A DNA stretch of 35,800 nt from NCBI GenBank assembly GCA_946481345.1, contig CAMLMY010000022.1:1-35800 (forward strand). Direction: 5' to 3'. Below are positions 1-15,060 of this stretch, one piece after another. Under the pieces are notes generated by a model. It was not told the DNA's origin. It was given only the letters and a program-made list of their open reading frames with translations, and made no database searches. Position 1 is the first letter of the stretch. Every line of letters begins with the position of its first letter. The translations under genes and the position numbers were made by a program. The stretch comes from an uncultured Gilliamella sp. GTDB taxonomy: Bacteria > Pseudomonadota > Gammaproteobacteria > Enterobacterales > Orbaceae.

Positions 1-25
1 TGACATAAAAAGACCCCCAGTTATT

Positions 26-48
26 GGTTGTCCAACTATTGGGGGTCA
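26..48 (+). mobile_element. IS3-type terminal inverted repeat (end of an IS lying mostly outside the window)
   Basis: The stretch ending in CCAACTATTGGGGGTCA matches the usual right end of IS3-family (IS150-like) elements, which end in ...GTCCAAC...GGGGGTCA. It also forms an 8-bp inverted repeat (GACCCCCA at 12-19 with TGGGGGTC at 40-47). No transposase is visible, so this is either the tip of an element to the left or a solo end. The family assignment rests on the end motif only. Confidence 0.45.
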
Positions 49-685
49 CTTCATTTGAGGGCTTTTTGTTTTAGGATACATATCCGATTTATTATAAGTT
101 TCGTTGAATTTGCTCTCCTGTTATTCATCCTTTTTGTTGCTAATTCAGTTTAAAATTTTAACAACGCTAATACCCAGTTGGTCCATATTTACTCATCAGA
201 CCTTGAACTAACCACGTTTTATTACGGTTATGAATTCCTATTTGATGGTAAAAAGGGTAATGTAGATTTTTATTAGGTGCGGTTATATACTTAGAAAAAT
301 CAGGTACGGACATCTTGTATAGAATGGGAGTATGTCATGTTTGCTGAAAATTTTTGGATGTCATTTGCAGTGTTAGCGCAATGGTGGACGATTTGCATCA
401 TCTCCAGCCGTCAATCGGTGAGGTTAATGGCGACCATTTTTATTTCCGTTACTCTCAATTTACTAAAACAATGAACCAATATAGTTAATACCATTGATTT
501 TTGCTTAATAGATCGACAATACCTTTTCATATTGTATTTCAATTTGTCACAATTTTGCTTAATTGGCTAAAAATGATTTAACAAAGATAATTATTTAGTA
601 ACTAAAAAGCAGTAATAGAAGTTACCAGTTAAAATCAAAACACTTTCCAAAAATAATAGAACATGAATATGTAAGGAGATAAATC
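49..685. other. AT-rich region with decayed coding fragments upstream of the GDSL hydrolase
   Basis: There is no confident gene here. An open stretch at about 163-275 reads ...SSDLELTTFYYGYEFLFDG... and ends at a TAG without a start codon, so it looks like a remnant. A 45-codon ORF (337-474) has a good ribosome binding site and is listed separately. In another frame of that ORF, 381-487 reads MVDDLHHLQPSIGEVNG..., so which frame is the real or former one is uncertain. The last ~150 bases are very AT-rich and probably hold the hydrolase promoter. Confidence 0.4.
337..474 (+). CDS. possible small membrane protein (45 aa)
   Basis: The ATG is preceded by GGGAG with six bases between, a good ribosome binding site. 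The product is hydrophobic and basic (it begins MFAENFWMSFAV, then a stretch ICIISS...LMATIFISVTLNLL) and could span the membrane once or twice. I do not recognise a family. It sits in otherwise decayed DNA next to an IS end, and a second frame across the same bases also looks peptide-like, so it may be a remnant rather than a working gene. Confidence 0.25.
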   Translation: MFAENFWMSFAVLAQWWTICIISSRQSVRLMATIFISVTLNLLKQ

Positions 686-2524
686 ATGTCAGTCATTAAG
701 CAACAAACCGGTGAAAGTATACAGCGGATATTAGATACTTTACCCGAAGACTACAATAAGCTACATCTAATAATGGCAAAAATGGCGGCCGGGGAAGATG
801 TTAAAATTGCATGTTATGGTGATTCGACCACCGATGGTATCAATACAACAAACCATAAAAAAAATATTACAGGAACAGATCATAATCTCAATGCCCCTAA
901 TGCGTGGCCAGCTCAGCTACAATTGTTGCTTAGAGAAATGTATCATAATAATAATATAAACGTTTTTAATGCAGGATTTAGCGGGAAACGAATAGAAAAC
1001 GGTTGGGCAACAGATAATTATGAGGCCAATATCACAAAAAATCCGTACTACGGAGTATGTGATATGGTTATCATCAACTTTGGATTAAATGATGCCGCTA
1101 GAACTAATCGGCTATATCGATATATTAATCAAACAGAGTTATTAATTAAAAAAGTTATAAAAGATGGTTCAACCCCTGTGTTGCTATCATGTAATCTAAC
1201 ATATCTATCAAAAAAGGACGGAAGCGAAAGGGATAAAAAAGATGTTACTCAACAATATAATCAAGCTAAGGAATATTTAGCCCAAAAATATAATATCCCA
1301 TTTTTTGATTTATCCAATTCAATGATTAGTTGGTTACAAAATAACAATCAATATAAATGGGGTGAATTGCAACCCGACGGATTACATTTTGGTGATTTGG
1401 GGCATAAATATCAAGCAATGTGGCTAGCGAGTCGTTTATATTCAAATACCGTTATTATTAATGATTCCACACCGTATCAATCAATTAATTTTATGGATAG
1501 TAAATCTAATTCTCCATTTGGCTATGCAAGCCAATACACTGGCACAGGTACAAAATATTTATCAATTGTACTCGCGAAAGATGTTAAGAAATTCATTAAC
1601 CAGCCAACCATGGAAGTTTATGTTTGGTGTGAAACTAACAACGTTGCGTGCGTTTATCGTCAAGCTTCATATGAAAATGCCACGGGCAGCTATGTTATGC
1701 ACAAAGATATTATGAGTGATGTAGTTAACTCGTATAGGATCTTACCTAGATTTGATATGACAAACGGGAAAACCAGTTATGGAGGGGTTGATGTTCCCCG
1801 GTATCTGTGCGATTTAAAATATGGGTTAAATAAATTGTCATATATTTATGGCAAAGATAAAGAAATTGACACAACTGATTTTTATTTTGGTTTTTTTGAT
1901 TTCGTTAAAAATTATGAATCTAATTTTAATCCCCGTAATTTATTATATAAATCCGGCCCTATTCGGAGTATTGCAACGGTTCCGGCGCGCAAGAATATAG
2001 TCAATTATATTAGAAGAGATCTGTATGATCAGACTGGACAGGATTCACTGCAATTATTTGTTGATGGCAAAAAAACATATTTATATTTAGAATTTGAAGG
2101 ATCAGAGCTAAATGGAATTGTGTTAACACAAACCAGAGGTATGCGTAAAATGTATAACGATGGCTTTATGCTGTTTAAATTGGATGACTCTAATTTATCG
2201 GCGCATGTCATTAGGTCATCGGTTAAAACAAATGAAACAACATATTCAACCGCTGCAGAGGGTATTATCCCAATTTTTATTGATAAAACAAATTGTAAAT
2301 TATTATTAGAATTCTATATTGATAAATCTAACAATATTATTATGAATTCATTAAACGAACAGTATGGCTTATTAAGTCATCATGTTATTTCGCCACTGTT
2401 TGCATTTCCCTTTTCAGGTATTTTTGGAAATATTTTTAGTAAAAATATATCGCGAGATGAGGATATTTCAACACAATTTAATATAACAAGGGCGGAGGTA
2501 TGGTACAAAGATAACATAAATTAA
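686..2524 (+). CDS. SGNH/GDSL-family hydrolase with long C-terminal beta-rich region
   Basis: Predicted serine esterase/lipase-fold enzyme. The SGNH blocks are visible in order: GDS with nucleophile Ser47 (VKIACYGDSTTDG, residues 39-51), block II around NAGFSG (95-100), block III GLND with Asn135 (133-136), and block V DGLH with Asp231 and His234. The catalytic domain therefore covers about residues 35-255. The remaining ~350 residues have no family I can name; they look beta-rich with many aromatics and may bind a carbohydrate or serve as a fibre-type domain. No signal peptide is visible. The ATG has a strong AAGGAG site five to six bases upstream. The gene stands alone, bordered by decayed DNA and an IS end, with a weak hairpin after the stop. 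Known SGNH enzymes deacetylate polysaccharides or cleave esters; the substrate here is unknown. A capsule/tail-fibre esterase is one possibility. Confidence 0.75.
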   Translation: MSVIKQQTGESIQRILDTLPEDYNKLHLIMAKMAAGEDVKIACYGDSTTDGINTTNHKKNITGTDHNLNAPNAWPAQLQLLLREMYHNNNINVFNAGFSGKRIENGWATDNYEANITKNPYYGVCDMVIINFGLNDAARTNRLYRYINQTELLIKKVIKDGSTPVLLSCNLTYLSKKDGSERDKKDVTQQYNQAKEYLAQKYNIPFFDLSNSMISWLQNNNQYKWGELQPDGLHFGDLGHKYQAMWLASRLYSNTVIINDSTPYQSINFMDSKSNSPFGYASQYTGTGTKYLSIVLAKDVKKFINQPTMEVYVWCETNNVACVYRQASYENATGSYVMHKDIMSDVVNSYRILPRFDMTNGKTSYGGVDVPRYLCDLKYGLNKLSYIYGKDKEIDTTDFYFGFFDFVKNYESNFNPRNLLYKSGPIRSIATVPARKNIVNYIRRDLYDQTGQDSLQLFVDGKKTYLYLEFEGSELNGIVLTQTRGMRKMYNDGFMLFKLDDSNLSAHVIRSSVKTNETTYSTAAEGIIPIFIDKTNCKLLLEFYIDKSNNIIMNSLNEQYGLLSHHVISPLFAFPFSGIFGNIFSKNISRDEDISTQFNITRAEVWYKDNIN

Positions 2525-2527
2525 TTA

Positions 2528-2544
2528 ACGGTATTTTTTACCGT
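2528..2544 (+). terminator. weak hairpin after the GDSL hydrolase
   Basis: ACGGTA and TACCGT pair around a five-T loop immediately after the stop codon. The stem is only six base pairs and the following tract is TTGAATTT, so termination would be weak. Confidence 0.35.
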
Positions 2545-2934
2545 ATTGAATTTATTATTTAATGCTTAATTAATTGTTATGATGAAATCCTAAAGAAAAC
2601 ATCTTAAGAAAGGATAAATGTGAATGTCCAGCCTGCAATGAAGTTATATATGTTTGCCCGAATCTTGCCAAAGGGAGTGAGATTTATGATGATGAGCTTA
2701 GTCCTAAGTGTGCATAAAGGAATTAAACACACAAAAGGTGGTTTGGGGGAAACATATTGAATGCTGCGGGTTTGGCCTGAGAGGTAATTATAATCAAAGA
2801 CACATTAAAAAAATAATAAAGTGTAATCATTAATCTTGATAAGCAAAATATCCTAAAGTCAATGTTTGCTAATCGAGGGTATAGTGATAAACAACCAATC
2901 GATCATCAATCGGTAGTATGTCACTTTAACCAAT

Positions 2935-3149
2935 AAAGGTAAAGTTAGTTTCACCAGAATAGTAAATTATGATAACCGCAGAGATACAATTACCAAAAAA
3001 GCTGATCTCTGTATTTGTTGCCGAGAAAGTCAGGCATTTGCTCTCTACAGGGGGAAAACCTGTCAAAAAGTTTCAGGTTAACTGTACGTTTGAGTATAAA
3101 AATTAATAAATAATCTTACTTTATATTCACTGAACATAGGGATAAACCA
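2935..3149 (+). repeat. ~215-bp direct repeat, copy 1 (partner at 6880-7097)
   Basis: Collinear similarity to 6880-7097 is obvious by eye: shared blocks include GTAAATTATGATAACC, GATACAATTACCAAAAAAG, CCGAGAAAGTCAGG, GTCAAAAAGTTTCAGGTTAA and TACGTTT. Both copies end in a degenerate type I-E CRISPR repeat (here 3123-3149). The block GTCAAAAAGTTTCAGG...TACGTTT (3062-3104) recurs alone at 13779 and 15259. The repeat has no intact ORF. Short translated bits (KKFQVN.TF) faintly recall the zinc-binding N-terminus of IS1-type InsA, but that is speculation. Confidence 0.7.
3123..3149 (+). repeat. fossil CRISPR repeat (27 nt, short form)
   Basis: The 3' half reads CATAGGGATAAACC, nearly identical to the repeat of the intact array at 7360. 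The 5' half (ATATTCACTGAA) is degenerate. Its length, 27 rather than 29 nt, matches the fossil at 5964-5990, which lacks the same internal TA. No spacer-repeat unit follows, so it is a solo remnant. Confidence 0.5.
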
Positions 3150-3427
3150 TAAAATGAACAATTTAATAAAAACTAAACTTTTTTGAGCGCAAAAACGCAA
3201 ATTTTTAGCAAACAATAAGTTAAGTAATTAAAATAATTGTTTGGTTGATTGTTTTTTGTTCAAAGATCTGTATAGAATTGAACATTTATGAATTTTAGGT
3301 GTGAAAAAATGCATAATCCAAATAAATGAAAAATATTCCAATAAAACGTGATTTTTTTTAAAGTTAGCTTTAATTAAAAATTTAATTTAAAATATAATTT
3401 AATTATTTTTGTGAATAAATTATTGTT

Positions 3428-4006
3428 ATGAATAGCCCAGATCAAATAAAAAATAACATTATCAATTGGATATCCAATGGTGACTCAATTTATGAATATC
3501 ATGATAACGATGTTATTATTGATGAGCTCTGTTTTTTGGAGAGAAAAAATAGAGCTGACCTTGTATATGCAAATGGTAAATTAACAGCTTTTGAAATTAA
3601 ATCTAAAGCAGATAGTTTGGCTAGATGGGAATCTCAATGCTCTGCATACTTAAAAGTTTTTGATGCGGTTTGGTTATGTTGTCACAATAAACATGCTTTG
3701 AAATCTATAGAAGTTACCCCTAAAGAAGTCGGTATTATAATCGTCGATGATACTAAATCAGGTTTGGCGATACTTAGAGATGCTAAAATAAATAAAAATA
3801 TAGATTCATATTACCTATCCGATTTACTCTGGCGTGTAGAGCTTGATGAGTTGTGTCTTGAAAATAATTTGAAGGTAATAAAGAAAGAAAAAATAAAGGA
3901 AGTCAGAACTCGAATAAGCAATGAACTTCCTATTGAAATTATTCGACAAAAAGTATTACAAAAGCTTAAATTGCGTTATGAAAGTTTAAGTCATTCTAGC
4001 AATTGA
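3428..4006 (+). CDS. sce7726-family protein, putative PD-(D/E)XK-type nuclease fold
   Basis: The sequence fits the sce7726 family, known mainly as a partner of sce7725/beta-family proteins and of unknown function. Residues 42-58 read RADLVY...AFEIKSK: Asp44, then Glu56-x-Lys58, which is the D...ExK core of PD-(D/E)XK nucleases. The conserved continuation (K60-ADSL-R66, Q70, Y74, VFD) is also present. The C-terminal third is lysine-rich and helical. There is no signal peptide or membrane segment, so it should be cytosolic. The ribosome binding site is poor. The gene converges on the beta-family gene and their 3' ends overlap by 21 bp, whereas such pairs are usually described side by side. Nuclease activity is inferred from the motif alone. 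A role in phage defence or a selfish module is plausible from the neighbouring S24 repressor and CRISPR locus but unproven. Confidence 0.7.
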   Translation: MNSPDQIKNNIINWISNGDSIYEYHDNDVIIDELCFLERKNRADLVYANGKLTAFEIKSKADSLARWESQCSAYLKVFDAVWLCCHNKHALKSIEVTPKEVGIIIVDDTKSGLAILRDAKINKNIDSYYLSDLLWRVELDELCLENNLKVIKKEKIKEVRTRISNELPIEIIRQKVLQKLKLRYESLSHSSN

Positions 4007-5014
4007 AGTAATATGTTGATTAATTCTTATGCCGTTCCATGTTCCTGAATTACCATTATTAATGGTTTTATTTGCAATGTGATAAATTTGAGAGTCTCCC
4101 CAACTAAAATTATTACCGTGATAAAAACTTTCAGAAACAAGGCAATTAGCTAAATCAACGAATTTATTAAATTCATGACTATTGCCAGTTTTCATTTGAT
4201 ACCAATGATAATTATCATAGTAAGTTACACATGGTATTATTTGCATTCCAGGAACATATTCCATTGGAGATGTTGGGTTAGTTGCTCCATAATCTCCATA
4301 AATTAAATTTATTCTTGGAAATGAACTTTTTAAGTTAAAATATAGGGGTAAGTCAAGGTTAGGTATTTCTTCCCACATATCTCGGCTGGATGTTTTTTGT
4401 GATGGATATGATGTTGATATAACTGAGACATTAAGACCACTATATAAATTTGAGAGTCTATATAAAAAATCGGATAACCGATTCTGAATTGTATTAATAT
4501 TTTCACCTACTATAGATCCTATATCACATAAAACTAAAATTGAATTTTGATCTGATGATGAAGCTAATAATGCAAATAAATTATTAATTGAGTTTTCTGA
4601 CAAATCAGTTACACGTATTGCAATTTTTCTGTATGGTCTATTTTGTAGTTTAAATAAGAAATGTACATTATTCCTCATTGTTGATGTAGGCAAGATACTA
4701 ATAACAGGAATTAGATTAGGATTTACCTGTAAAATCTTTTCATAAAAATCATATTTATGTTGAAAATCGTTACTATGATCTAATAAACCATTAGCTTGAT
4801 TATATTTATCATACATATCTGGTGCAATTAAAGATGCGTCAACTAAAAATGGATACTTCCCCCAGTTAGGTAGAAAATTATTAAATAAGTAATCATTCTT
4901 TAATTCTCCTCGTGTATTAATAAAAGGTAAAACGTAATTTTTATCATTATTATCAATATTAATTAGAGCATTAATATCATTCATTCCAGATTTTAAATTT
5001 ACTATATGGAACAT
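3986..5014 (-). CDS. beta family protein (T4 beta protein-like, sce7725-type)
   Basis: 342 residues with hallmarks of the beta-protein family (named after a phage T4 protein of unknown function). The N-terminal region has a long alpha/beta portion (IPVISILPTS, KIAIRVTDLS, ILVLCDIGSI), and the C-terminus carries the family-typical SWGDSQIYHIAN...GTWNGIRINQHIT. No catalytic motif is evident and there is no signal peptide. The ATG has an AGGAG site eight bases upstream. Members commonly sit beside sce7726 proteins; here the partner lies on the opposite strand and the two genes overlap tail to tail by 21 bp, so each transcript contains antisense to the other's end. The S24 repressor follows upstream on the same strand, separated by a terminator, so this gene has its own promoter in about 5015-5060. 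Function unknown; association with mobile or defence loci is inference. Confidence 0.7.
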   Translation of the reverse strand: MFHIVNLKSGMNDINALINIDNNDKNYVLPFINTRGELKNDYLFNNFLPNWGKYPFLVDASLIAPDMYDKYNQANGLLDHSNDFQHKYDFYEKILQVNPNLIPVISILPTSTMRNNVHFLFKLQNRPYRKIAIRVTDLSENSINNLFALLASSSDQNSILVLCDIGSIVGENINTIQNRLSDFLYRLSNLYSGLNVSVISTSYPSQKTSSRDMWEEIPNLDLPLYFNLKSSFPRINLIYGDYGATNPTSPMEYVPGMQIIPCVTYYDNYHWYQMKTGNSHEFNKFVDLANCLVSESFYHGNNFSWGDSQIYHIANKTINNGNSGTWNGIRINQHITSIARMT

Positions 5015-5063
5015 TGCTTTCTCCTCTTTTTATATGATTAAGATTATCTGTTTTGGGCTTATT

Positions 5064-5082
5064 AAAAACCGCGAAAGCGGTT
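5064..5082 (-). terminator. rho-independent terminator of the S24 repressor gene
   Basis: On the minus strand AACCGC-TTTC-GCGGTT is followed by TTTAAT, about 22 bases beyond the stop of the repressor. It isolates the repressor from the beta-family gene downstream. Confidence 0.65.
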
Positions 5083-5104
5083 CGTTATTTATGCGCAATC
5101 CTGC

Positions 5105-5779
5105 CTAGCCATGTTTCCTTAACATCATCGACTGGCTTAACATTACTTTGCCATGTATATAAAGCTGATCAATTTCTTCTTCACTAATATCCCAATTTTG
5201 ATATTTTTTATTATCAGATATAACAATCAGCTTATTTTTTATTAATTGTAAACGTTTTACATACAAACCACGATCAAAAGTAAAAACATAGATACCATCG
5301 CTTTGGAATTGATTAACCGTAATATCTATGTATATAGCATCACCGCTTTCAAAAGTTCCTTGCATTGAATCGCCAGAAACATTAATTATTTTTAAGTTTT
5401 CGGACGGTATCCCATTAAATAATGTTGTTGCGTGTTCATTGTAAAACTCAATACATTTTATAACTTCTACAATATCATTATTCAAAAATCCGTTTCCTGC
5501 ACTGGCATTTATATTTAAAACCTCAATTACATAGGTATTATTATCAAGTTGATATTGATTATTACAGTTCAATCTTGCTAATTGGGTATTATTTTTATCT
5601 AAATAGAATTGAGGCATACCGTAATCGTACTCTAAACGACGAGCCGATTTTTCCCCAAAAGAAGCCTTACCACTAATCAATTGAGAAATATAGCTCTTTT
5701 CTTTTGGTGGAACTGTTTTATTTGAAAACCATTGTTTTAAATTTTTAGCTCTAAGTTCTTTTAATTCAGTTTTATTCAT
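5105..5779 (-). CDS. phage-type repressor, HTH plus S24 (LexA-like) self-cleaving peptidase
   Basis: CI-type transcriptional repressor. An XRE-like helix-turn-helix covers about residues 5-60 (SYISQLISGKASFGEKSARRLE), followed by a linker and an S24 peptidase domain at about 90-220. The autocleavage apparatus is complete: Ala94-Gly95 scissile bond (NASAGNGF), nucleophile Ser138 (VSGDSMQGTF) and general base Lys175 (GLYVKRLQ). It should therefore respond to RecA-dependent DNA damage signalling. The ATG has an AGGAG site. Two near-perfect palindromes lie 20-65 bases upstream, in the position expected for autoregulatory operators. The divergent cro-like gene is broken, so the repressor may now control only itself and possibly neighbouring islet genes. 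It is the clearest phage-derived gene in the window. Confidence 0.88.
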   Translation of the reverse strand: MNKTELKELRAKNLKQWFSNKTVPPKEKSYISQLISGKASFGEKSARRLEYDYGMPQFYLDKNNTQLARLNCNNQYQLDNNTYVIEVLNINASAGNGFLNNDIVEVIKCIEFYNEHATTLFNGIPSENLKIINVSGDSMQGTFESGDAIYIDITVNQFQSDGIYVFTFDRGLYVKRLQLIKNKLIVISDNKKYQNWDISEEEIDQLYIHGKVMLSQSMMLRKHG

Positions 5780-5801
5780 AGAAGCTCCTATTTTTTATAT
5801 T

Positions 5802-5823
5802 TTATTTAGTATTTACTAAATAA
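5802..5823. promoter_or_regulatory. putative repressor operator 1 (22-bp perfect palindrome)
   Basis: Half-site TTATTTAGTA is followed by its exact reverse complement TACTAAATAA around a TT centre (10-2-10). It lies 23 bases upstream of the S24 repressor start codon, overlapping the likely -10 region of that gene. Binding by the repressor is inferred from position and symmetry. Confidence 0.6.
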
Positions 5824-5827
5824 GCAA

Positions 5828-5844
5828 AAAGTAAACTTTACTTT
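5828..5844. promoter_or_regulatory. putative repressor operator 2 (17-bp perfect palindrome)
   Basis: AAAGTAAACTTTACTTT is an 8-1-8 perfect palindrome. Its centre is about 23 bp from the centre of operator 1, close to two helical turns, as for adjacent phage operators. Core AGTA/TACT elements are shared with operator 1. Confidence 0.55.
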
Positions 5845-5902
5845 GTTTTCGGTCTGGTTTTAAATAAACTATATTAAACTTTTAACTAAACCTAAGGCGA
5901 AG

Positions 5903-5963
5903 ATAAAATTATCAGAGTATCTGTTTCATCTTTCAAGAGGCGGTAAAAGCCAATTTGCTAAAA
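5903..5963 (+). pseudogene. decapitated and truncated cro/YdaS-like regulator
   Basis: Divergent to the S24 repressor, where phages carry cro. The frame from 5903 reads (I)KLSEYLFHLSRGGKSQFAKNV, matching the N-terminus of YdaS/Cro-like proteins, which begin MKLS-YL...RG-KS-LAK. The expected ATG is ATA here, with a purine-rich AAGGCGA just upstream, so the start codon appears mutated. After KNV the frame runs directly into a CRISPR-repeat-like sequence at 5964 and stops at TAA within it. About 20 of the expected ~65-75 codons remain. Confidence 0.55.
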
Positions 5964-5990
5964 ATGTTCCCTGTACACAGGGATAAACCG
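5964..5990 (+). repeat. fossil CRISPR repeat at the break of the cro-like gene
   Basis: ATGTTCCCTGTA followed by CACAGGGATAAACCG: identical to the intact array repeat except G to A at the first base and loss of one internal TA (27 nt). It is solitary; no second repeat lies 61 bp away. It joins the cro-like remnant on its left to a different coding fragment on its right. Confidence 0.65.
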
Positions 5991-6128
5991 CTAGTTCGCA
6001 TTGAATCGAAATTAACCGAATATAATGGTGGCTATAAAATAATATCAATAGAGCATAACGGGGATTTATATGGTTTTAATTGGCATAGTAAATTAGTTTG
6101 TATTTGTGGAAAATTTGACAAGGTTTGA
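5964..6128 (+). CDS. 54-aa ORF initiated inside a CRISPR-like repeat (possible gene remnant)
   Basis: The only in-frame ATG is formed by the first bases of the fossil CRISPR repeat, so the first nine residues (MFPVHRDKP) are repeat-encoded. The rest (LVRIESKLTEYNGGYKII...) has a protein-like composition, with EHNGDLYGFNWHSKL and a CIC near the end, and runs to TGA at 6126-6128. I recognise no family. Most likely it is the 3' end of a gene whose start was lost when the repeat-containing junction formed; translation is uncertain because no ribosome binding site precedes the ATG. Confidence 0.3.
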   Translation: MFPVHRDKPLVRIESKLTEYNGGYKIISIEHNGDLYGFNWHSKLVCICGKFDKV

Positions 6129-6164
6129 TATAATTAGCATTTTCAAAACATTAAGGAATTTGAG

Positions 6165-6494
6165 ATGGCCGTAAAGTATTGCACCCTTTGTCAACGAAAT
6201 GTTACTCCAAAACGAAAAATCGGGGTGGGCACACTAATTGGCGTTTTTTTTACAGGATTTATTTGGGTTTTATTTATTCCTTTTTATAAAAAACGATGTC
6301 CTTTATGCTTGGGCGACAAATTAACAATAATCCCAGCAGTGTCACCAAATAAAAAAGATAATAATATTAAATTAAATCATAATTCTAATTTATCTGTTTC
6401 TGATGAACTAAAAAAATTACATGATCTAAAAGAAAGTGGTGTTTTAACACAAGAAGAATTTGATTTTCAAAAAAGTAAACTATTAAATCACTAA
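6165..6494 (+). CDS. small zinc-ribbon membrane protein with C-terminal SHOCT domain
   Basis: 109 residues in three parts. First, CTLC at 6-9 and CPLC at 45-48 form a split zinc ribbon. Between the two knuckles lies a hydrophobic segment (about 20-40: IGVGTLIGVFFTGFIWVLFIPF) that would cross or dip into the membrane. The C-terminus (about 80-108: DELKKLHDLKESGVLTQEEF) is a typical SHOCT domain, a short module usually at the ends of oligomerising or membrane-linked proteins. The ATG follows AAGGAATTTGAG. No enzymatic motif is present. It is the last gene of the repeat-flanked islet, before the fossil CRISPR unit. Function unknown; the domain calls are fairly secure. Confidence 0.7.
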   Translation: MAVKYCTLCQRNVTPKRKIGVGTLIGVFFTGFIWVLFIPFYKKRCPLCLGDKLTIIPAVSPNKKDNNIKLNHNSNLSVSDELKKLHDLKESGVLTQEEFDFQKSKLLNH

Positions 6495-6507
6495 TTATAA
6501 AATAAAT

Positions 6508-6607
6508 GTGTTCCCTGTATGTACAGGGATCAATCCAATTCCAATGCCTCGTCGAATGCAGCTAATTTAATGCTCCCTGTATATCTTGCCATTACAGAAT
6601 CACAGGG
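6508..6607 (+). CRISPR. fossil repeat-spacer-repeat unit
   Basis: Repeat 6508-6536 (GTGTTCCCTGTAT, GTACAGGGAT, CAATCC; about five mismatches to the intact array), a 33-nt spacer-length gap (6537-6569), then a second repeat beginning at 6570 (ATGCTCCCTGTATA) that is split by ~17 extra bases before CACAGGG at 6601. The exact repeat phasing shows this was once a true array, now decaying. Confidence 0.6.
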
Positions 6608-6768
6608 CGCACAAATGTGGTTAGTCAAATCTCTTATGTGGTCAGACACCAATTCATAGATAAATATTCATTTACACTATTTCACACGAAATATCAGATT
6701 AATATAATTATATTGTATAAACTACATGCATATTCACAGTGGATATAAAGACAATGTGAGGATGTGTC
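6608..6768. other. non-coding stretch upstream of the truncated ORF
   Basis: AT-rich, no ORF; probably the old promoter region of the gene beginning at 6769. Confidence 0.3.
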
Positions 6769-6802
6769 ATGAGTAAGCAAATAGCCGTTTTGGACAATGA
6801 AG
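6769..6802 (+). pseudogene. 5' stub of a gene truncated by an IS end
   Basis: The ATG has a GAGG site eight bases upstream and begins MSKQIAVLDNE; after Glu11 the sequence passes straight into an IS3-type end (TGACTCC...) and stops three codons later. The rest of the gene is gone, so its identity cannot be told. Confidence 0.45.
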
Positions 6803-6824
6803 TGACTCCATAAAGTTGGACACT
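6803..6824 (+). mobile_element. IS3-type left terminal repeat (solo remnant)
   Basis: TGACTCCATAAAGTTGGACA is typical of the left end of IS150-like IS3-family elements. About 60 bases later the sequence joins the 215-bp direct repeat, so no transposase remains. It is the counterpart in type, though not necessarily the partner, of the right end at 26-48. Confidence 0.5.
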
Positions 6825-6879
6825 TTTATTAAGCGGTTTTTTATGTCTGAAAACCATAAACATTTAAATTAAACTTAAG

Positions 6880-7097
6880 GTGAAGTTAATTTCACCATAA
6901 GAGTAAATTATGATAACCATTGCGATACAATTACCAAAAAAGTTGATATTTGTATTGGTTACCGAGAAAGTCAGGTATTTCCTCTATATAGGGGTAAAAT
7001 ATGTCAAAAAGTTTCAGGTTAACCATACGTTTCAGTATAAATATCAATAAACAATTTAGCTTAACTTTATGTTCCCTGTACACACAAGGATAAATCG
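6880..7097 (+). repeat. ~215-bp direct repeat, copy 2, ending in a fossil CRISPR repeat
   Basis: Collinear with 2935-3149. The terminal part 7069-7097 is a full-length (29 nt) CRISPR repeat with four mismatches to the intact array (positions 1, 13, 19 and 27). It sits about 260 bases upstream of the intact array and leader. Together the two copies bracket the sce7726/beta/S24/SHOCT islet. Confidence 0.7.
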
Positions 7098-7199
7098 GCA
7101 GGCATCAATATTACATAGTATTTTTTACTATTCAAAAAATCACAATTATATATTTCATTGTTTACTTTTTTTTAATTATATGAAAAATATAAATTTATC

Positions 7200-7359
7200 G
7201 GTAGAATCTCGTAGAATGTAATTTTAATTTCTATTAATTTTAATTAATTAAATAAAAACATAGTGTTATAGAATGTGATTTTAATGAAAAATATCCCAAA
7301 AAATCGGTAGAAATTTGACAGTCAATATTTTAATTATAAAACAGTATGTTATAATTAGA
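7200..7359 (+). promoter_or_regulatory. CRISPR leader, type I-E
   Basis: AT-rich sequence immediately upstream of the first perfect repeat. The proximal part, GGTAGAAATTTGACAG (7311-7325) through to GTTATAATTAGA, follows the same order of elements as the E. coli I-E leader (GGTAGATTGTGACTGG ... GGTTATGTTTAGA). An internal near-repeat (TAGAATGTAATTTTAAT and TAGAATGTGATTTTAAT) is present. AT-rich segments could host IHF, which bends the E. coli leader during adaptation. Orientation agrees with the degenerate last repeat at the far end. Confidence 0.65.
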
Positions 7360-7877
7360 GTGTTCCCTGTATACACAGGGATAAACCGGTTACGAAATTG
7401 AAACTAAAAGTGTTAATTATGTGTTCCCTGTATACACAGGGATAAACCGCACATGAATATATTATTAAACAGTCGCTTAAAGTGTTCCCTGTATACACAG
7501 GGATAAACCGCAATCGGCAGGGATTACATCAATTAACAATTTGTGTTCCCTGTATACACAGGGATAAACCGGCGGACCCGAGCGATTACCAGGTTCGCCG
7601 CCCGTGTTCCCTGTATACACAGGGATAAACCGGGTACAACACTATTATTAGGTGATAAAAATCTGTGTTCCCTGTATACACAGGGATAAACCGTAAATAG
7701 ACCCAGTGGTACTGGGGCTATGGTTGTGTTCCCTGTATACACAGGGATAAACCGGTCGATGGATTTAGAGAGCGTCAAGTTGACATGTGTTCCCTGTATA
7801 CACAGGGATAAACCGCAGTGCTGATATCGTCGAAAGCGTTAACTTAACGTGTTCCCTGTATACACAGGGATAAACCA
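7360..7877 (+). CRISPR. type I-E CRISPR array, 9 repeats and 8 spacers
   Basis: Eight identical 29-nt repeats (5' half GTGTTCCCTGTATA, 3' half CACAGGGATAAACCG) start at 7360, 7421, 7482, 7543, 7604, 7665, 7726 and 7787. A ninth at 7849-7877 has its final G changed to A, marking the trailer end. Spacers are 32 nt (seven) or 33 nt (the last). The repeat contains CCCTGT/ACAGGG inverted arms, as in E. coli I-E repeats, and the crRNA stem-loop would form there. Spacer 4 (7572-7603) is about 72% GC, in sharp contrast to the AT-rich host. No cas genes lie anywhere in the window, so the effector complex must be encoded elsewhere or be absent. Confidence 0.97.
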
Positions 7878-8485: not shown

Positions 8486-8897
8486 TATCTTTGGTAAGAT
8501 CTTAATGTGATAAGGTAGTGGTGATTTACCATGATTATTGATAACAAATGTTGATATTGCCCATATTTAACAATTAGTTTTGGTTTGATTTTTCTTGTTT
8601 TTATTAAAATAATTTAAACATGATTATATTAATTTTTTATTTATGACGATGCTTTCCTTTCGTTTTTTGGTACATAGTGTTACCAGTCTTTATAACAGGA
8701 ATATTGTCGATGTAGTTTAATAGAAATCAACGAGAAAAGCCGAATAATAGAACTTACTATCTATAAATTAGGATAGTTTACTGTTATTTTAATTGATTTT
8801 ATTATATCACTGCTTGCTATTTTAGCTGTATTCGATTAGTGAGAATTTTATAGGAAACAGACTTAAGATCAAAATAGCTATAAATTCTTAAGAAGAA
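8486..8897. other. non-coding stretch, nothing recognised
   Basis: AT-rich with frequent stops in all frames. It lies 3' of tRNA-Val on the minus strand and probably contains that transcript's end, but no convincing terminator hairpin was found. Confidence 0.4.
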
Positions 8898-8974
8898 TGG
8901 TACGCCCGGGTGGACTCGAACCACTGACCCCCACCATGTCAAGGTGATGCTCTAACCAACTGAGCTACGGGCGT
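8898..8974 (-). tRNA. tRNA-Val (GAC)
   Basis: Minus-strand cloverleaf: acceptor ACGCCCG pairs with CGGGCGT, then discriminator A and an encoded CCA. D arm TAGCTCAGTTGGTTAGAGCA; anticodon loop TTGACAT with anticodon GAC; T arm GGTTCGAGTCC. The sequence is very close to E. coli tRNA-Val(GAC). No direct repeat of its 3' end was seen nearby. Confidence 0.95.
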
Positions 8975-9259
8975 ATATCGGAAACACGCAAATATTAACG
9001 GGCAATTCGATTTGTATCAAGTAAAAAATTTAAAAATAGCCGTTTTTTTAATCTGTCGAAACATAACGTTGATAAAATAATCAATAAATGGTATTTAATT
9101 GTTAAGTTAAAGATGATTGTTAGATGAATGTTTTCTCATTGTTTATGTTAACCGAAAAAATTTATGCTTTATATAAATAGCAAATAAATGTAAGTCGGTG
9201 GTGGTTTGTTGAAATTATTTTAGCTATACTCCCTGAATTAATAAAAGGGGTTATTTGTT

Positions 9260-11107
9260 TTGGTTAATATGTCGATAAAAGATCAGATTGAAGATGTTTT
9301 ACACAATGTATTTGGTTATAAATCATTTAGAAATCAACAAAAAGAAATTATTGAATCAATTATCGATGGACGAGATACATTAACAATTATTCCAACTGGT
9401 GGGGGAAAATCGTTATGCTATCAAATTCCAGCGGTACTATTGCCAAGCACTGCGTTAATCATTTCCCCATTAATTTCATTAATGAAAGATCAGGTTGATC
9501 AATTGCTTGCTAACGGTATTCCGGCGGCGCTTCTCAATGCTACTCAGTCCTTGGCAGAACAGCAAGAGGTAGTTGAAAAATATTTAAATCACTCGATAAA
9601 ATTATTATATATCTCTCCTGAAAGGCTTGCCGTAGGTTCATTTATATCAATGATTCAAAGCCATCCCCCTTCACTCATTGCGATTGATGAAGCTCACTGC
9701 ATATCACAATGGGGGCATGATTTCAGACCTGATTATCGACAATTAGGACAGTTGTCCTCTCGATTTCCGAACGTTCCGATTGTTGCGTTAACCGCCACCG
9801 CCGATAAGATGACACAAACGGATATCATTCATCAACTTCAATTGGTTGATCCTTTAGTTGTTGTTCGTAGTTTTGATCGCCCCAACATCCGATATACTGT
9901 TGTCGAAAAATTTAACTTAACAGAACAAGTGGTCTCTTTTATTGAAACGCAAAAAGGAAATAGTGGGATAATTTATTGTTCTAGCCGTTCCAAAGTTGAA
10001 GATATGACAACTCGACTTGCCAGTCGGGGATTTTCCGTTATGGCTTATCATGCAGGGCTTTCTTATAGTGAGCGTCAAATAGCCCAGGAAGCATTTTTAA
10101 AAGATAATGTGCAAATCATTGTTGCTACCGTTGCATTTGGCATGGGGATTAACAAACCTAATGTTAGATTTGTCGTGCATGCTGATTGCCCTAGAACTAT
10201 CGAAGCCTATTATCAAGAAACGGGCAGAGCGGGGCGAGATGGCGTCCCTGCAGAAGCAATCTTATTGTTTAATAAAAATGATTTGAATTGGTATTATCAA
10301 CAAATCGCCGAAAAAACAGATGGGGTACATAAAGATATTGAACAACATAAAATTGAGGCTATGGAATCATTTGCACAAAGTTTAACTTGTCGGCGAATTG
10401 TATTGCTTAACTATTTTGGCGAAAAACGAACGGAGCCTTGCAATAATTGTGATATCTGTCTTTATCCACCTGAACAATACGATGGCTTAGTTGATGCACA
10501 AAAAGTTTTATCTTGCATTTATCGAGTAGAACAACGTTATGGTGCACAATACATTGTTAATGTTTTACGAGGTTCTGCTCGTTCTCAAATTAAAGACAAT
10601 GGTCATGATAAATTGTCCGTTTATGGTATTGGTAAAAATCAATCTAGTAATTATTGGCTAAGTGTGATTCGACAGCTAGTTCACTTAGGTTATTTGATTC
10701 AAAATATTTCAACTTCTTCAAGTTTGCCAACCTTACAATTAACTCAAGAAGCTAGAAAAATACTTAGAGGTGAAATTCCATTATCGCTAGCCAAACCTCG
10801 CCTTGAAATTGTTAAGAAAAGCCGCCTAAATCGTTATGCTCGATCAATAAATATGACAGCGATGTTATCCTTTGAAGAGCGTATGTTATTCAATAATCTG
10901 AAACGATTACGTAAAGATATTGCTGATAGTGAAGATGTACCACCTTATATTATTTTTAGCGATGCAACATTATTAGAAATGGTGCAAACAACGCCAGCAA
11001 GTAAAAAAGAGCTAATTAATGTTACGGGAGTTGGAAAAATCAAATTGGAAAAATATGGCAATCTATTTTTAGAGGAAATTAAAGATTTTATAGTAAAAAA
11101 TATATAA
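9260..11107 (+). CDS. recQ: ATP-dependent DNA helicase RecQ
   Basis: 3'-5' superfamily II helicase of the RecF recombination and fork-restart pathway. Co-linear with E. coli RecQ (609 aa) over its whole length: Walker A TGGGKS (about 48-53), DEAH box with the aromatic-rich loop ([16 protein letters not shown]), motif V/VI ([29 protein letters not shown]), the zinc cluster C...CNNCDIC (about 376-400), a winged-helix RQC domain, and a C-terminal HRDC domain (about 535-610). The start used is TTG at 9260, nine bases after AAGGGG; the ATG at 9269 would be 18 bases from it and is less likely, though it adds only three residues. It is a single gene with its own promoter. Confidence 0.96.
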
Positions 11108-11195: not shown

Positions 11196-12446
11196 ATGTC
11201 ACCAATGAATGACATGCCACAAATGTTGGCATTAGTGCTGTTACTGGTTATTCTTTATCTTGGCGATATCGTTTCGATCCGTACCAAAGCATGGGTTCCG
11301 TCTGTATTTATCTGCGCTGTTCTTTTTTTATTAGGATATTGGACATTCTTTCCTACCGATATTGTGGCACGAGCAGGAGTACCAACAGTCGTTGCTGTTA
11401 TGTTTATGTATTTACTCATTGTTAACATGGGTACACTTTTATCAGTTAAAGAATTATTATTGCAATGGAAAACCATCTTAATTTCTCTTGCTGGAATTGT
11501 TGGTATTATTATTGTGGCTATCATAGTTGGGTATCTGCTCTTCGATTTTAATACGGTAGTGGTTGCTATTCCTCCTTTAGTGGGTGGTATTGTTTCGGCA
11601 ATTATTATGGCTAATGGGGCAAAAGACGCGGGATTGCCTGATTTGGCTGTTTTTGCCATTATTATTTATGTGATGCAAGGATTTATTGGTTATCCACTTA
11701 CTTCTATTATGCTAAAGCGCGAAGGGCGAAAAGTTTTAAAGCAATATCATGCAGGCACTTGGCATGTAAGTGATGACCCTAAATCCTCCATTGATAAACA
11801 ACAAGCAACATCGTCTGATGAAAATCCAATGCCAAGTTTGTTTGCAAAAATTCCCTCTAGCTATAATTCATCGTATTTCATTTTTTTACGTATTGCTATC
11901 ATCGGTTTTTTAGCTTACTTTGTTTCAGAAGTTTTAAAACCAATAGTTAGTGTAAGTCCATTTGTATTATGTTTGTTATTTGGTGTAATTGCTGCATCAT
12001 TTGGTTTTTTAGAACGCCATCCATTAAAAAAAGCAGGTGGATTTGGAATAACGGTGATGGGGTTAATGTTATTTATTTTTGATACATTAAGTCGAGCAAC
12101 ACCCGAAATGCTTATGCGTTTGCTAACGCCTCTAGTCATCTTTATTTTATCTGCAGTTGTCGGTATGTTTATTTTTTCAGTTATTGTAGGCAAAATATTA
12201 AAAGTGAGTAAAGAACTGGCTTTTTCAATTGCGCTTACAGCGTTGTATGGTTTTCCTGCCGATTACATAATTACTAATGAAGTCATTAATAATTTAACAA
12301 AAGATCCAAAAGAGAAAGAAATTCTAACCAGTCATATGTTACCACCAATGTTGATTGGAGGATTTATATCGGTGACTATTGTTTCAGTTGTATTAGCAGG
12401 AATAATGGTGAATATGATAGTAGGCCCTGCATCAGCAGTGCAATAA
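11196..12446 (+). CDS. polytopic membrane transporter, family uncertain (about 10 TM helices)
   Basis: 416 residues, almost entirely hydrophobic segments of about 20 residues, in two halves separated by a hydrophilic loop at about 175-225 (HVSDDPKSSIDKQQATSSDE...). Gly/Pro-rich segments (IPPLVGGIVSAIIMANGAKDAGL in half one, LTALYGFPADYIITNEVINN in half two) resemble the paired re-entrant motifs of Na+-coupled carboxylate/glutamate symporters, but I cannot name the family. The ATG has GGAG six bases upstream. The next gene downstream on the same strand is an M20 amidohydrolase, which suggests uptake of N-acyl or aminoacyl conjugates that the enzyme then hydrolyses. The two genes are 148 bases apart and may or may not be cotranscribed. 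Confidence 0.75.
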   Translation: MSPMNDMPQMLALVLLLVILYLGDIVSIRTKAWVPSVFICAVLFLLGYWTFFPTDIVARAGVPTVVAVMFMYLLIVNMGTLLSVKELLLQWKTILISLAGIVGIIIVAIIVGYLLFDFNTVVVAIPPLVGGIVSAIIMANGAKDAGLPDLAVFAIIIYVMQGFIGYPLTSIMLKREGRKVLKQYHAGTWHVSDDPKSSIDKQQATSSDENPMPSLFAKIPSSYNSSYFIFLRIAIIGFLAYFVSEVLKPIVSVSPFVLCLLFGVIAASFGFLERHPLKKAGGFGITVMGLMLFIFDTLSRATPEMLMRLLTPLVIFILSAVVGMFIFSVIVGKILKVSKELAFSIALTALYGFPADYIITNEVINNLTKDPKEKEILTSHMLPPMLIGGFISVTIVSVVLAGIMVNMIVGPASAVQ

Positions 12447-12594
12447 TTAATTATAAAATCCAAAAAATTTGATAATCATCTTTATTAGCATTATCAATAG
12501 CAATTAATGGAAATTAACAGTATTTATTTAATGATAGCTCAACAATGGCTAGTGTTATAAAAGTAGAACAAATTGAAATATTAAAGGTAGTGAA

Positions 12595-13773
12595 ATGACG
12601 AATCCAAACATAAAAAAATTAATACAACAAAATATTGATGAGATGGTCGCTTTTCGTCGCGATCTTCATCGTCATCCTGAATTACCGTGGGAAGAGTTTA
12701 GAACCACAGATAGAATTGCTCAGGAGCTTGATAAAATAGGAATTGCCTATCGACGTACGGAACCTACAGGGATTATCGCTGAAATTCAAGGAGGCAAGCC
12801 AGGTAAAAGAATTTTATTAAGAGCAGATATTGATGCGTTACCCGTACAAGAACTGAGTGAAAACATTGATTATAAATCAACGATTGACGGTAAAATGCAC
12901 GCTTGCGGTCACGATACCCATGCTTCTATGTTACTGACAGCGGCAAAAGCGCTTTATGAGATTCGCGATCAACTAAAAGGTAATGTAAGACTTGTTTTTC
13001 AACCCGCTGAAGAGGTTGCTCAAGGTGCCAAAGGCATGATTAAACAAGGTGTGCTTGATGGTGTAGATAGTGCATTTGGTATGCATATTTGGTCACAAAT
13101 GCCAGTGGGTAAAATATCTTGTGTAGTCGGATCGAGTTTTGCTTCTGCTGATTTATTGACTGTGCGTTTTAAAGGAAGAGGTGGTCATGGTTCTATGCCA
13201 CATGATACCGTTGATGCAGTAATGGTTGCTTCCGCATTTGTTATGAATGTCCAATCCATTGTGTCGCGTGAAGTGTCGCCACTTGATCCCGCTGTTGTGA
13301 CAATTGGTCGTATGGATGTTGGTACACGCTTTAATGTTATTGCCGAAAATGCGGTATTAGATGGAACAGTGCGTTGTTTTAACGTTGCCGTGCGTGACAA
13401 AATTGAATCAGCAATCCGACGTTATGCTAATCAAGTTGCTGCAATGTACCGAGCAACAGCCGAAGTTGAATATATCTATGGCACTTTGCCAGTAATTAAT
13501 GATAAAGAAAGCGCATTACTAGCCCAAAAAGTAATTGTCGAATCATTTGGTGAAGAGGCACTATACTTTGAAGCACCAACAACAGGTGGTGAGGATTTTA
13601 GTTACTATACAGAAAATATACCGGGTGCTTTTGCTTTAGTTGGTTCGGGTAATCCTGATAAAGATACTCAATGGCCACATCATCATGGTTGTTTTAATGT
13701 GGATGAAGATGGAATGGCATTAGGCGCTGAATTCTATGCGCAATATGCTTGGGCTTATTTAAATCAAAATTAA
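12595..13773 (+). CDS. M20 family amidohydrolase (hippurate/N-acyl-amino-acid hydrolase type)
   Basis: Cytosolic metal-dependent amidase, 392 aa, the normal length for the HipO/AbgB/YxeP group. Motifs: HRHPELPWEEF (25-35), LRADIDALPVQE (75-86), metal ligands Cys104 and His106 in MHACGHDTHASM, QPAEE with Glu139/Glu140, His164 in GMHIW, the dimerisation-domain GGHGSMPHDTVDA, and the C-terminal GGEDFSYY and HHHGCFN. All ligand positions for a two-metal site are intact. The start is supported by AAAGGT upstream and by the family length. Substrate cannot be told from sequence; likely N-acylated amino acids or similar conjugates delivered by the upstream transporter. Confidence 0.92.
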   Translation: MTNPNIKKLIQQNIDEMVAFRRDLHRHPELPWEEFRTTDRIAQELDKIGIAYRRTEPTGIIAEIQGGKPGKRILLRADIDALPVQELSENIDYKSTIDGKMHACGHDTHASMLLTAAKALYEIRDQLKGNVRLVFQPAEEVAQGAKGMIKQGVLDGVDSAFGMHIWSQMPVGKISCVVGSSFASADLLTVRFKGRGGHGSMPHDTVDAVMVASAFVMNVQSIVSREVSPLDPAVVTIGRMDVGTRFNVIAENAVLDGTVRCFNVAVRDKIESAIRRYANQVAAMYRATAEVEYIYGTLPVINDKESALLAQKVIVESFGEEALYFEAPTTGGEDFSYYTENIPGAFALVGSGNPDKDTQWPHHHGCFNVDEDGMALGAEFYAQYAWAYLNQN

Positions 13774-14055: not shown

Positions 14056-15060
14056 TTAATTAAATAAAGGTCCATCAATACTTGGAAAAAAAGGTTTAAT
14101 TGTGTTATATAAATGATCAGCTTGTTCTGTATTTCCTGCACATTTAGCTGCAAGTCGAGCGTAACAACCACATGGCCAGTTTTTTCTTTTACTTTTTTCA
14201 AAGCAATCATATAACGTATCATATATTTCAATAAGTGTTATATCTATATCACCAATTTTTACCACATCAATATTTTGTTGCTTAAAATACTTAAGTAAAA
14301 TAGCTCTGGCTAAGTAATAAATAATATAATAATCCGATCCAGTAATCTCTTTTCTCTTGCTCCAAAGTAGTATGCCAATTGATATCACGTCATCATGTTT
14401 AAATTGCTTAGCAAGTGAACAAAACTTACTGAGGGGAAAATCAGGATGAATAAGTTCAGGAGGTGTTTCGTAAGCGTTGCGTGTCCACATTATTCCTGTT
14501 TTTATTGTTTTGGCTGGAGAGCCAGCAATCATTGAAAAATCTGAAAATGATCTATTAACGATAGTTCTTGCACCAACAACGCAGCCTTTATTGATTTTTG
14601 CTCCTTTTAATACAATCGTATCGCGGGCTAACCAGACTTTATCTTCAATGATAACATCTTTAGAAGGATTTATTCTTTTGCGTGTTTGCATATCATAAAC
14701 ACCATGCAGGTCTGAGTTATAAATCCTACAGTTGGCAAATAAACAATCATCACCGATATGAATTGCTCCATTTTCAGCCACATGTATAAAAATCAGATCA
14801 TTACAAATTAATCCATTGCCTATAAATAATTTGCAATTTGGTTCAATGATAATTCGACCTCTTAATTCGCATAGATCGCCGATTTCTAACTCTCCACCGT
14901 TTCGAACGGTTATCGATGCGGAATTGAGTTTAGTTCCATAGCCTATTTTTATTTTTGGGTTGGTATCTAAAAATTCAATATATGAGGAATTCATCTCAAT
15001 TCCTTTTGAAATTTCAAACGGTATATCAGTTTTATTGTCTAGAGTTTTTAATATATTCAA
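14056..15060 (-). CDS. hexapeptide-repeat (left-handed beta-helix) O-acyltransferase
   Basis: 334 residues. The N-terminal ~195 residues carry imperfect hexapeptide turns (ITVRNG, LEIGDL, LFIGNG, IHIGDD, VIIEDK, VWLARD, IVLKGAKINKGCVVGARTIV) and end with the family-typical SMIAGSPAKTIKTGIMW, as in LPS/exopolysaccharide O-acetyltransferases of the WcaF/galactoside acetyltransferase type. The C-terminal ~140 residues are helical with no motif I recognise. The expected donor is acetyl-CoA and the acceptor a surface glycan; this is family inference. The start is TTG at 15060, seven bases after GGAG; the first in-frame ATG comes 22 codons later. The gene is alone, oriented opposite to both neighbours, and flanked by two direct copies of a 40-bp dispersed repeat, which suggests it was inserted between the amidohydrolase gene and dnaX. 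Confidence 0.82.
   Translation of the reverse strand: MNILKTLDNKTDIPFEISKGIEMNSSYIEFLDTNPKIKIGYGTKLNSASITVRNGGELEIGDLCELRGRIIIEPNCKLFIGNGLICNDLIFIHVAENGAIHIGDDCLFANCRIYNSDLHGVYDMQTRKRINPSKDVIIEDKVWLARDTIVLKGAKINKGCVVGARTIVNRSFSDFSMIAGSPAKTIKTGIMWTRNAYETPPELIHPDFPLSKFCSLAKQFKHDDVISIGILLWSKRKEITGSDYYIIYYLARAILLKYFKQQNIDVVKIGDIDITLIEIYDTLYDCFEKSKRKNWPCGCYARLAAKCAGNTEQADHLYNTIKPFFPSIDGPLFN

Follow-up and report, generated by a model that had tools for sequence, protein, structure and literature searches.

The islet that precedes the CRISPR array in the window (the whole stretch of 35,800 nucleotides that was analysed) is probably a wreck of prophage pieces within and next to a decayed CRISPR unit, together with recombination involving CRISPR modules of both phages and the chromosome. 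Related phages that carry small arrays beside extra genes hint at the origin of this mixture of phage and CRISPR DNA.

A composite direct repeat upstream of a CRISPR array

Two collinear copies of a direct repeat, in the same orientation (+/+) and about 83-84% identical, occupy positions 2936-3149 and 6877-7097, and the alignment of 2936-3147 with 6877-7095 scores 249, versus 47 for the best of 200 base shuffles. An earlier note on this DNA had described such a pair of about 215 bp, each copy ending in a degenerate form of the repeat used in the array at 7360-7877. Both observations hold, the alignment confirming the former and repeat-like sites within four edits, at 3126 and 7072, the latter.

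The same note took the copies for the ends of a cargo cassette, a reading that is not supported: each is made up of the start of a phage terminase gene (roughly its first 100 bases), a 42-bp intergenic element and a fossil CRISPR repeat. In copy 1, the terS-terL junction and the 5′ end of the terminase large-subunit gene (2936-3058, + strand, clearly homologous as far as about 3037; the intact gene in G025 has PF04466) are followed by the element (3061-3104, +) and the fossil repeat (3123-3149, +). Copy 2 comprises the terminase large-subunit start (6877-6999, +), the element (7002-7044, +) and a fossil repeat (7069-7097, +) 291 nt upstream of the array's first repeat. The element is dispersed, with 48 matches in the genome, i.e., 46 besides both copies. 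At the terminase cut (3038-3058 and 6978-6998) there is a possible fifth repeat-like site, at 5-6 edits where scored, which aligns to the terminase too.

At up to four edits, the repeat-like sites in 1-7355 are those at 3126, 5967, 6511 and 7072 only, all on the + strand, and 40 dinucleotide shuffles gave none. Allowing five edits (up to four substitutions and two deletions) adds in 1-7355 only the palindromic reverse of the 6511 site, and no site appears on either strand of window positions 9001-35,800 or of 155,010 bases of recQ loci from ten relatives. The islet interior holds two more fossil repeats. One, at 5964-5990 (+), separates two truncated phage genes, and the other, at 6508-6536, opens an array remnant (6508-6581, +) composed of a repeat, a single 32-nt spacer-like stretch and a partial repeat, without a leader. 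Downstream lie a CRISPR leader region (7098-7359, +), with full-length matches of 86-90% in G002, G005 and G012, and the intact type I-E array (7360-7877, +) of nine repeats and eight spacers, all of 32-33 nt, the type I-E cas genes being found elsewhere in the genome (G000). Two pieces of the window spacers gave no exact viral match. A candidate leader remnant after copy 1 (3149-3427) was discarded, as its best 24-mer match was equalled in 5 of 200 shuffles and the stretch is prophage-homologous.

Prophage pieces between fossil repeats

The cargo had been proposed to be derived from phage or defence genes, and this is borne out by a CI/cro immunity block, a baseplate-hub end and the sce7726 and beta genes. 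The immunity block, a 2.8-kb piece (3150-5963) flanked by two fossil repeats, is homologous to prophages from 3150 (G006, G007) to 5962-5968 (G006, G007, G011). It contains a sce7726-family gene (3428-4006, +; PADLOC model 'cll'; NF033832, PDLC02989), a Beta_protein-family gene (3986-5014, −; PADLOC 'beta', also PD-Lambda-2_C; PF14350), an S24/CI-like phage repressor (5105-5779, −; PF00717, phrog_4) and a cro remnant that ends at the fossil repeat (5902-5963, +; by alignment with G006, G007 and G011). Both sce7726 and beta have PHROGs families, beta has no match among 50,697 phage records, and none of the papers listed in a literature search on the two was to the point; adjoining a CI repressor, they are probably prophage-borne defence genes.

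Beyond the second fossil repeat come the 3′ end of a phage baseplate-hub gene (5991-6135, +; PF22759 on the intact G020 gene, whose protein has relatives in 619 phage records) and a SHOCT-domain gene (6165-6494, +; PF09851), whose counterparts in viral contigs and in G008 are accessory genes of phages; in G008, too, SHOCT stands ahead of an array. The array remnant is followed by a pre-PAAR region (6586-6793, +), homologous to the L041 stretches that precede intact PAAR genes and ending in the first codons of a truncated PAAR gene (6769-6793), and by a segment of mixed origin (6794-6876, +), of which 6833-6876 is common to the G012 units described below and a scrap at about 6798-6850 matches L078 DNA adjoining a pair of transposase ORFs. 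Upstream of the islet, a gene for an SGNH/GDSL protein resembling phage tail-fibre proteins (686-2524, +; Pfam PF13472, PHROGs tail fibre) and the 3′ end of a phage terminase small-subunit gene (2850-2930, +; PHROGs on its L044 relative) were found. Altogether, the wreck includes structural and lysogeny genes of prophage type: the terL start, the terS end, CI/cro and the hub end.

Three of the four edges of the pieces 3150-5963 and 5991-6494 lie at fossil repeats, a coincidence that chance breakage does not by itself explain. The junction at 5963/5990 is known from this genome alone, the assembly being 75% complete and in 97 contigs. The source is a bee-gut Gilliamella genome.

Several mechanisms could be envisaged for such edges. 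Phage-matching spacers might have recombined with their targets, so that each spacer was lengthened, up to kilobases, by phage DNA beginning exactly at a repeat edge. Besides the three edges, this would agree with AAG being the commonest flank of matched spacers (11 of 22), with the AAG (G006) or TAG (G007) that adjoins the left edge of the first insert (3150-5963), and with spacers from another genome of the genus that match terS/terL of this prophage family. However, the expected PAM position is TCT at the right edge of that insert, and TCG in five of eight relatives at the edge of the second (GCG, TCA and TTG in one each); a PAM match at one of three edges is weak, and short shared sequences at the edges are a simpler cause, making such extension unlikely. 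Insertion of kilobase 'giant spacers' by Cas1-Cas2 would fit the layout, in which three repeats are separated by 2.8 kb and 0.5 kb and the third is followed by 32 nt and a partial repeat, as well as the AAG next to the left edge in G006, but is extremely improbable in view of the intact array's eight spacers of just 32-33 nt and of the G002 repeat preceding cargo, whose degenerate 3′ end is as expected of an ordinary array end. More broadly, it is conceivable but not likely that leader-repeat modules serve as recombination ends at which phage accessory genes and chromosomal islands exchange cargo, and that spacer-target recombination or adaptation with long inserts can bring kilobase phage pieces to lie exactly between repeats.

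Relatives at the recQ/tRNA-Val site

The islet lies near a tRNA-Val(gac) gene (8898-8974, −), and homology with 30 other relatives starts at this gene or further on, in no case more than 8 nt ahead of it. At this recQ/tRNA-Val site three genomes carry three different cargos, each beside CRISPR remnants; the suggestion that other cargo would be found at the same site is upheld to the extent that another cargo lies between CRISPR arrays in G002 and another adjoins CRISPR remnants in G012. Cargo lies between repeats in six of the eight relative loci tabulated, the exact repeat-edge position having been scored in this islet only.

In one relative, G012, the terminase scrap and the element are present twice, in tandem 4.24-kb units of scrap, array and PAAR gene whose order is matched by the landmarks of the islet. 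Since these units carry the scrap and the element, the 215-bp copies are probably signs of CRISPR units having been duplicated and not the arms of a cargo. Of the earlier proposal that a cassette was inserted at, or duplicated with, a CRISPR leader/repeat boundary, the duplication of a leader/array unit is seen in G012 and the cargo does sit at CRISPR repeats, but the 215-bp copies as cassette ends are not supported. Nor do copies and cargo always travel together: scrap and element occur in G012 without this islet's cargo, and G017 has a repressor fragment and the beta gene without 215-bp copies or a CRISPR repeat in the 19.9 kb examined. Cargo without the repeats, and repeats as a dispersed element unlinked to the cargo, two findings that would speak against a cassette, were thus both encountered in part.

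That the copies act as homologous arms, loading and swapping cargo between them, would be compatible with G002 having different cargo between arrays at this chromosomal site and with the duplicated scrap of G012. Nevertheless, these arms consist of terminase scrap and a dispersed element, their 128-bp terminase part has no match in the G002 genome, and the G017 repressor fragment and beta lack them, which leaves this explanation quite unlikely.

That whole arrays were duplicated recently in G012 is not supported, none of the 20 L041 spacers being common to its three arrays. Four of the five long PAAR matches of G012 lie at array loci or at the recQ locus, the recQ copy carrying a stop; as a rule, a link between PAAR genes and arrays is weak, as long copies occur elsewhere in G002, G005 and G000 too. 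None of the papers listed in literature searches on CRISPR arrays with genomic-island cassettes or T6SS cargo was to the point.

Repeats and mini-arrays in related phages

The exact repeat was found in 15 IMG/VR contigs, nine of which show no phage markers from the marker set near the repeats. In some related prophages and viral contigs, the space between the hub and baseplate genes is taken up by accessory genes and a mini-CRISPR array or single repeat: repeats are bracketed by hub and baseplate genes in L115, L122, L130, L133 and L136, and also in L141, L144 and L149, the order in L130 and L133 being hub, SHOCT, array, HicB, baseplate. Among the seven related genome prophages compared, two have a repeat or mini-array at this accessory site and five have none; G008 presents a mini-array and SHOCT in the prophage interior, and G025 (L122) a leader and one repeat, the single repeat (6185-6163) lying behind a leader-like stretch whose putative promoter is judged from leader likeness. 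Leader matches occur in 8 of the 16 loci tested, that of L127 spanning 20 nt only, and are absent from L115, L130 and L133. A weakly Cse1-like ORF lies near some of these arrays. Relatives of some of these accessory genes also occur in array islands on the G002 and G012 chromosomes. Viral-contig relatives exist for 5 of 15 island and window cargo proteins, while for the other ten, including PAAR, sce7726, beta, S24 and DUF7079, a search of 47 viral loci chosen for repeats or the hub gene gave none.

Integration of a prophage into a CRISPR repeat that served as attachment site, or that resembled repeats carried by the phage, with later decay of the prophage, overlaps with the preferred explanation. 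Phage-borne repeats are known in this prophage family, and viral integration into arrays via solitary repeats is mentioned as a proposal in PMC8616872 and PMC10651486. Yet none of the islet ORFs was recognised as an integrase or transposase, no att core was identified, and the pieces follow another order than the genes of the G007 prophage; integration may be deemed possible but not likely. Of the 38 repeat families, the 20 listed include no tRNA-end repeat; as the contig starts at window base 1, a far end located before it would fall outside the sequence.

How the islet may have been assembled

For the prophage wreck in a decayed CRISPR unit, the following course could be proposed. A prophage of this family would once have resided near recQ/tRNA-Val. 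Fragments of that prophage would have been joined to chromosomal leader-array units and to a phage-borne mini-array accompanied by SHOCT, and the joined units tandemly duplicated and later deleted, with leaders, repeats and short shared sequences as the likely sites of recombination. The 215-bp copies would then be the corresponding upstream flanks of two leader-array units, the array of the left one having presumably been worn down to fossil repeats. Several events are needed, as the order terminase, immunity, hub differs from that of the G007 prophage, where CI/cro and terS/terL lie within one prophage region.

If prophages of the genus often carry leader-bearing mini-arrays by their accessory genes, the adaptation machinery of the host could update phage-borne immunity. 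Leader and repeat DNA would then constitute a recombination platform common to phages and chromosomes, which would help to explain why, in some Gilliamella genomes, CRISPR arrays and genes of secreted, immunity-like or defence type take turns along the chromosome.

Comparison with known systems

Prophage remnants in genomic islands are a known general kind of structure. Like them, the islet has pieces of terminase, CI/cro and hub genes close to a tRNA gene; it differs in that these are interleaved with CRISPR arrays and fossil repeats.

The phage-borne arrays recall the virus-borne mini-CRISPR arrays of Medvedeva 2019 (PMC6858448): in both, short arrays of host-type repeats sit in phage gene clusters, here some with a leader match, whereas the phage mini-arrays with which that paper draws a comparison are said to be leaderless. 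Those arrays belong to archaeal viruses, while the present ones belong to bacterial phages, with accessory genes alongside and the Cse1-like ORF near some. Among the sequences compared here, spacers of two viral contigs (L126 and L127) match other prophage-type regions of Gilliamella, flanked by AAG.

The G025 prophage, with its leader and one genus-type repeat of putative function, is reminiscent of the solitary repeat units, or RNA anti-CRISPRs, of PMC10651486, although several cases here have at least two repeats. The joining of phage DNA to a CRISPR array is shared with the spacer-phage recombination mentioned in PMC8616872; the islet differs in showing a PAM at only one of three edges.

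Make-up of the direct repeat

The earlier note described two collinear copies on the same strand, and the description holds: 2936-3147 aligns with 6877-7095 at ~83-84% identity, with a local alignment score of 249 vs. a best of 47 among 200 shuffles. Both copies were also seen to terminate, as it had described, in a degenerate version of the repeat that the intact array at 7360-7877 uses, an array with nine repeats and eight spacers. The direct repeat is a composite, made of a terminase scrap, then a 42-bp element and then the fossil repeat. Judged by the intact gene of the relative G025 (408 aa, PF04466), 2936-3037 holds the terS-terL junction and the 5′ beginning of the gene for the large subunit of a phage terminase, with the end of terS at 2850-2930; the 128-bp terminase part is present in four of the 60 genomes searched, the window's own genome (G000) being counted among the four. 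The 42-bp intergenic element (first copy, 3061-3104) occurs in at least 46 further places of G000, a count that may be a lower bound because 40 of the 73 first-look candidates were scored; altogether, its 48 matches lie on both strands (e.g., window 15258-15300, and locus L033), and its predicted fold is unremarkable (z -0.87). On contig 27 of G000, the element stands in tandem at a spacing of ~190 bases.

Fossil repeats and edges of the inserts

A search of window 1-7355 that allowed ≤4 edits gave four repeat-like sites, at 3126, 5967, 6511 and 7072, each on the + strand; two belong to the copies, and therefore two further fossil repeats are internal to the islet. No such site appeared in 40 dinucleotide shuffles at ≤4 edits nor, at ≤5 edits, in the window from 9001 onward or across 155,010 bases of the recQ loci of ten relatives. 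The layout at 6508-6581 is that of a repeat, a 32-nt spacer and a partial repeat.

Insert 1 is flanked by repeats at 3123-3149 and 5964-5990, and insert 2 begins at 5991. The fourth edge is inexact, the homology of insert 2 to the relative G008 stopping at 6497, ten bases short of the repeat at 6508. For a PAM test, 273 unique spacers were matched against the DNA stretches analysed. Non-array matches were obtained for 22 of them, with 5′ flanks AAG (11), ATG (3), AGG (2), GAG (1) and other (5); a spacer with two places was scored by its first row, and the rows s45 and s255, whose flank is a repeat, were dropped. The left edge of insert 1 reads AAG in G006 and TAG in G007, its right edge TCT, and the edge of insert 2 is TCG in five of eight relatives, with GCG, TCA and TTG in one each, so that the test is positive, weakly, at one edge of three. 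Short sequences common to the edges, such as ATAAACC in G006, allow for illegitimate joining.

Prophage debris as cargo

A phage or defence origin of the cargo had been suggested earlier, and both inserts bear out the phage part: the first matches prophage immunity regions and the second opens with the end of a baseplate-hub gene. Homology of 3150-5963 to immunity regions starts at 3150 in G006 and G007 (at 3162 in G013, where the match is shorter) and stops at 5962-5968 in G006, G007 and G011. This block comprises sce7726 (PADLOC 'cll'), beta (PADLOC 'beta', also PD-Lambda-2_C), a CI-like S24 repressor and a cut cro. Among 35 genus genomes, beta is present in two (G000 and G017) and sce7726 in three (G000 and matches of 33% and 39%). 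In G017, beta follows a fragment of a repressor gene, and the stretch examined there has no CRISPR repeat. The 3′ end of the hub gene covers 5991-6135, as assigned by PF22759 on the intact G020 gene, and the SHOCT gene comes next. Since CI/cro and terS/terL lie ~9 kb apart in G007, with phage genes in between, the pieces of the window fit one phage family, from which their gene order differs.

The same site in relatives and a tandem counterpart

At recQ/tRNA-Val, G002 carries an array, two other genes, two repeats, a leader and an array, and G012 a leader remnant, PAAR, a terS gene, a terL piece, a hub fragment and one fossil repeat. Eleven other recQ loci have no array within the stretch examined (just 2.4 kb for L087), and the homology that 30 other relatives show to 8640-9560 starts ≤8 nt before the tRNA-Val gene. 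At L077, L078 and L079, in G012 and at the matching place of G002, small genes running in one direction (DUF7079, lipoprotein-like, OB-fold) take turns with CRISPR arrays.

Another G012 locus, L041, has three arrays in a row with one degenerate repeat ~290 nt upstream of each, as in the window. They are separated by two PAAR-DUF4225 genes and small ORFs, and a Pfam search of the tested small ORFs gave no match. The terminase scrap and the dispersed element recur there with a period of 4238 bases, and a second leader before the degenerate repeat was recognised in two of the three units. The window keeps this landmark order, with phage cargo in its left unit: scrap, element, fossil repeat, array remnant, pre-PAAR, shared segment, scrap, element, fossil repeat, leader, array. 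The PAAR gene is broken off after about eight codons. A stretch of ~290 nt between element and fossil repeat in G012 is absent from both window copies, from which we infer one common deletion, with the duplication later than it; alternatively, the stretch would have been gained by G012. The L041 arrays have no spacer in common, which implies either an old duplication or turnover of the arrays.

CRISPR modules carried by phages

The interval from hub to baseplate was compared across seven genome prophages. It is empty in G020 (71 nt) and G011 (190 nt) and without a repeat in G034 (910 nt) and in G003 and G027 (~2.5 kb each); G008 has SHOCT, a three-repeat array and HicB, and G025 an OB-fold gene, an antirepressor-type gene, a leader with one repeat, and HicB. 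Furthermore, exact repeats of two variants were found in 15 IMG/VR contigs (13 and 3, one in both). Hub and baseplate genes bracket them in three (L130, L133 and L136), L137, L131 and L138 carry one phage marker of the set used, and nine carry none of these markers, L128 nonetheless having phage-type ORFs. Identity was ≥72% at 13 of 32 hub loci; the interval exceeds 900 nt in eight of these, three of them repeat-bearing, and no repeat was found in the five with short intervals or in the 18 assessable of the remaining 19. There is overlap among these sets: a single contig underlies L136 and L149, the contigs of L132 and L134 agree in length and layout, the leader of L144 is identical to that of G025, and L130 and L133 resemble G008. 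Of 15 cargo proteins from array islands and window, relatives in the 47 viral loci exist for five, and two of these (from G002 and G012) are mutual relatives; the other ten, namely PAAR, DUF7079, sce7726, beta, S24 and five others, have none there. Viral-contig spacers of L126 and L127 have AAG-flanked matches in other Gilliamella prophage-type regions.

A possible history and the known kinds

Most likely, prophage fragments and both phage-borne and chromosomal CRISPR modules would have been joined beside tRNA-Val, and the joined pieces then duplicated and worn down there, a path from prophage to wreck that we infer. This same history of joining, duplication and wear could include integration or spacer-target recombination among its steps, and the odds of these rival readings therefore overlap. 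The parts of the arrangement are covered by known kinds, virus-borne mini-arrays (PMC6858448) and solitary repeats that act as RNA anti-CRISPRs (PMC10651486), and integration of viruses into arrays by repeat homology is mentioned as a proposal in PMC8616872. The portions examined of the Gilliamella literature hold no description of this arrangement.

The cas locus

The G000 assembly is incomplete (75% complete, 4.62% contamination, 97 contigs), and the window takes up contig 22 in full. The type I-E cas genes lie on contig 5 (L031), adjoining a second array, with Cse1 and Cse2 domains within a single 727-aa reading frame at 11516-13699; no cas3 was noticed on visual inspection of the ORFs listed for this locus. 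Upstream of cas8e, at 14190-14280, stands a pair of degenerate repeats ~23 nt apart, presumably akin to a small regulator of the cas operon that resembles a crRNA. A similar pair adjoins a 363-aa ORF in the G008 prophage (L115, 14211-15419). This ORF has a weak likeness to Cse1 (PF09481, E 0.0028, below the cut-off) and 26% identity to the G000 Cas8e over part of its length. Each of the viral contigs L130 and L133 has one repeat-like site along with a stretch resembling Cas8e, ordered as in L115.
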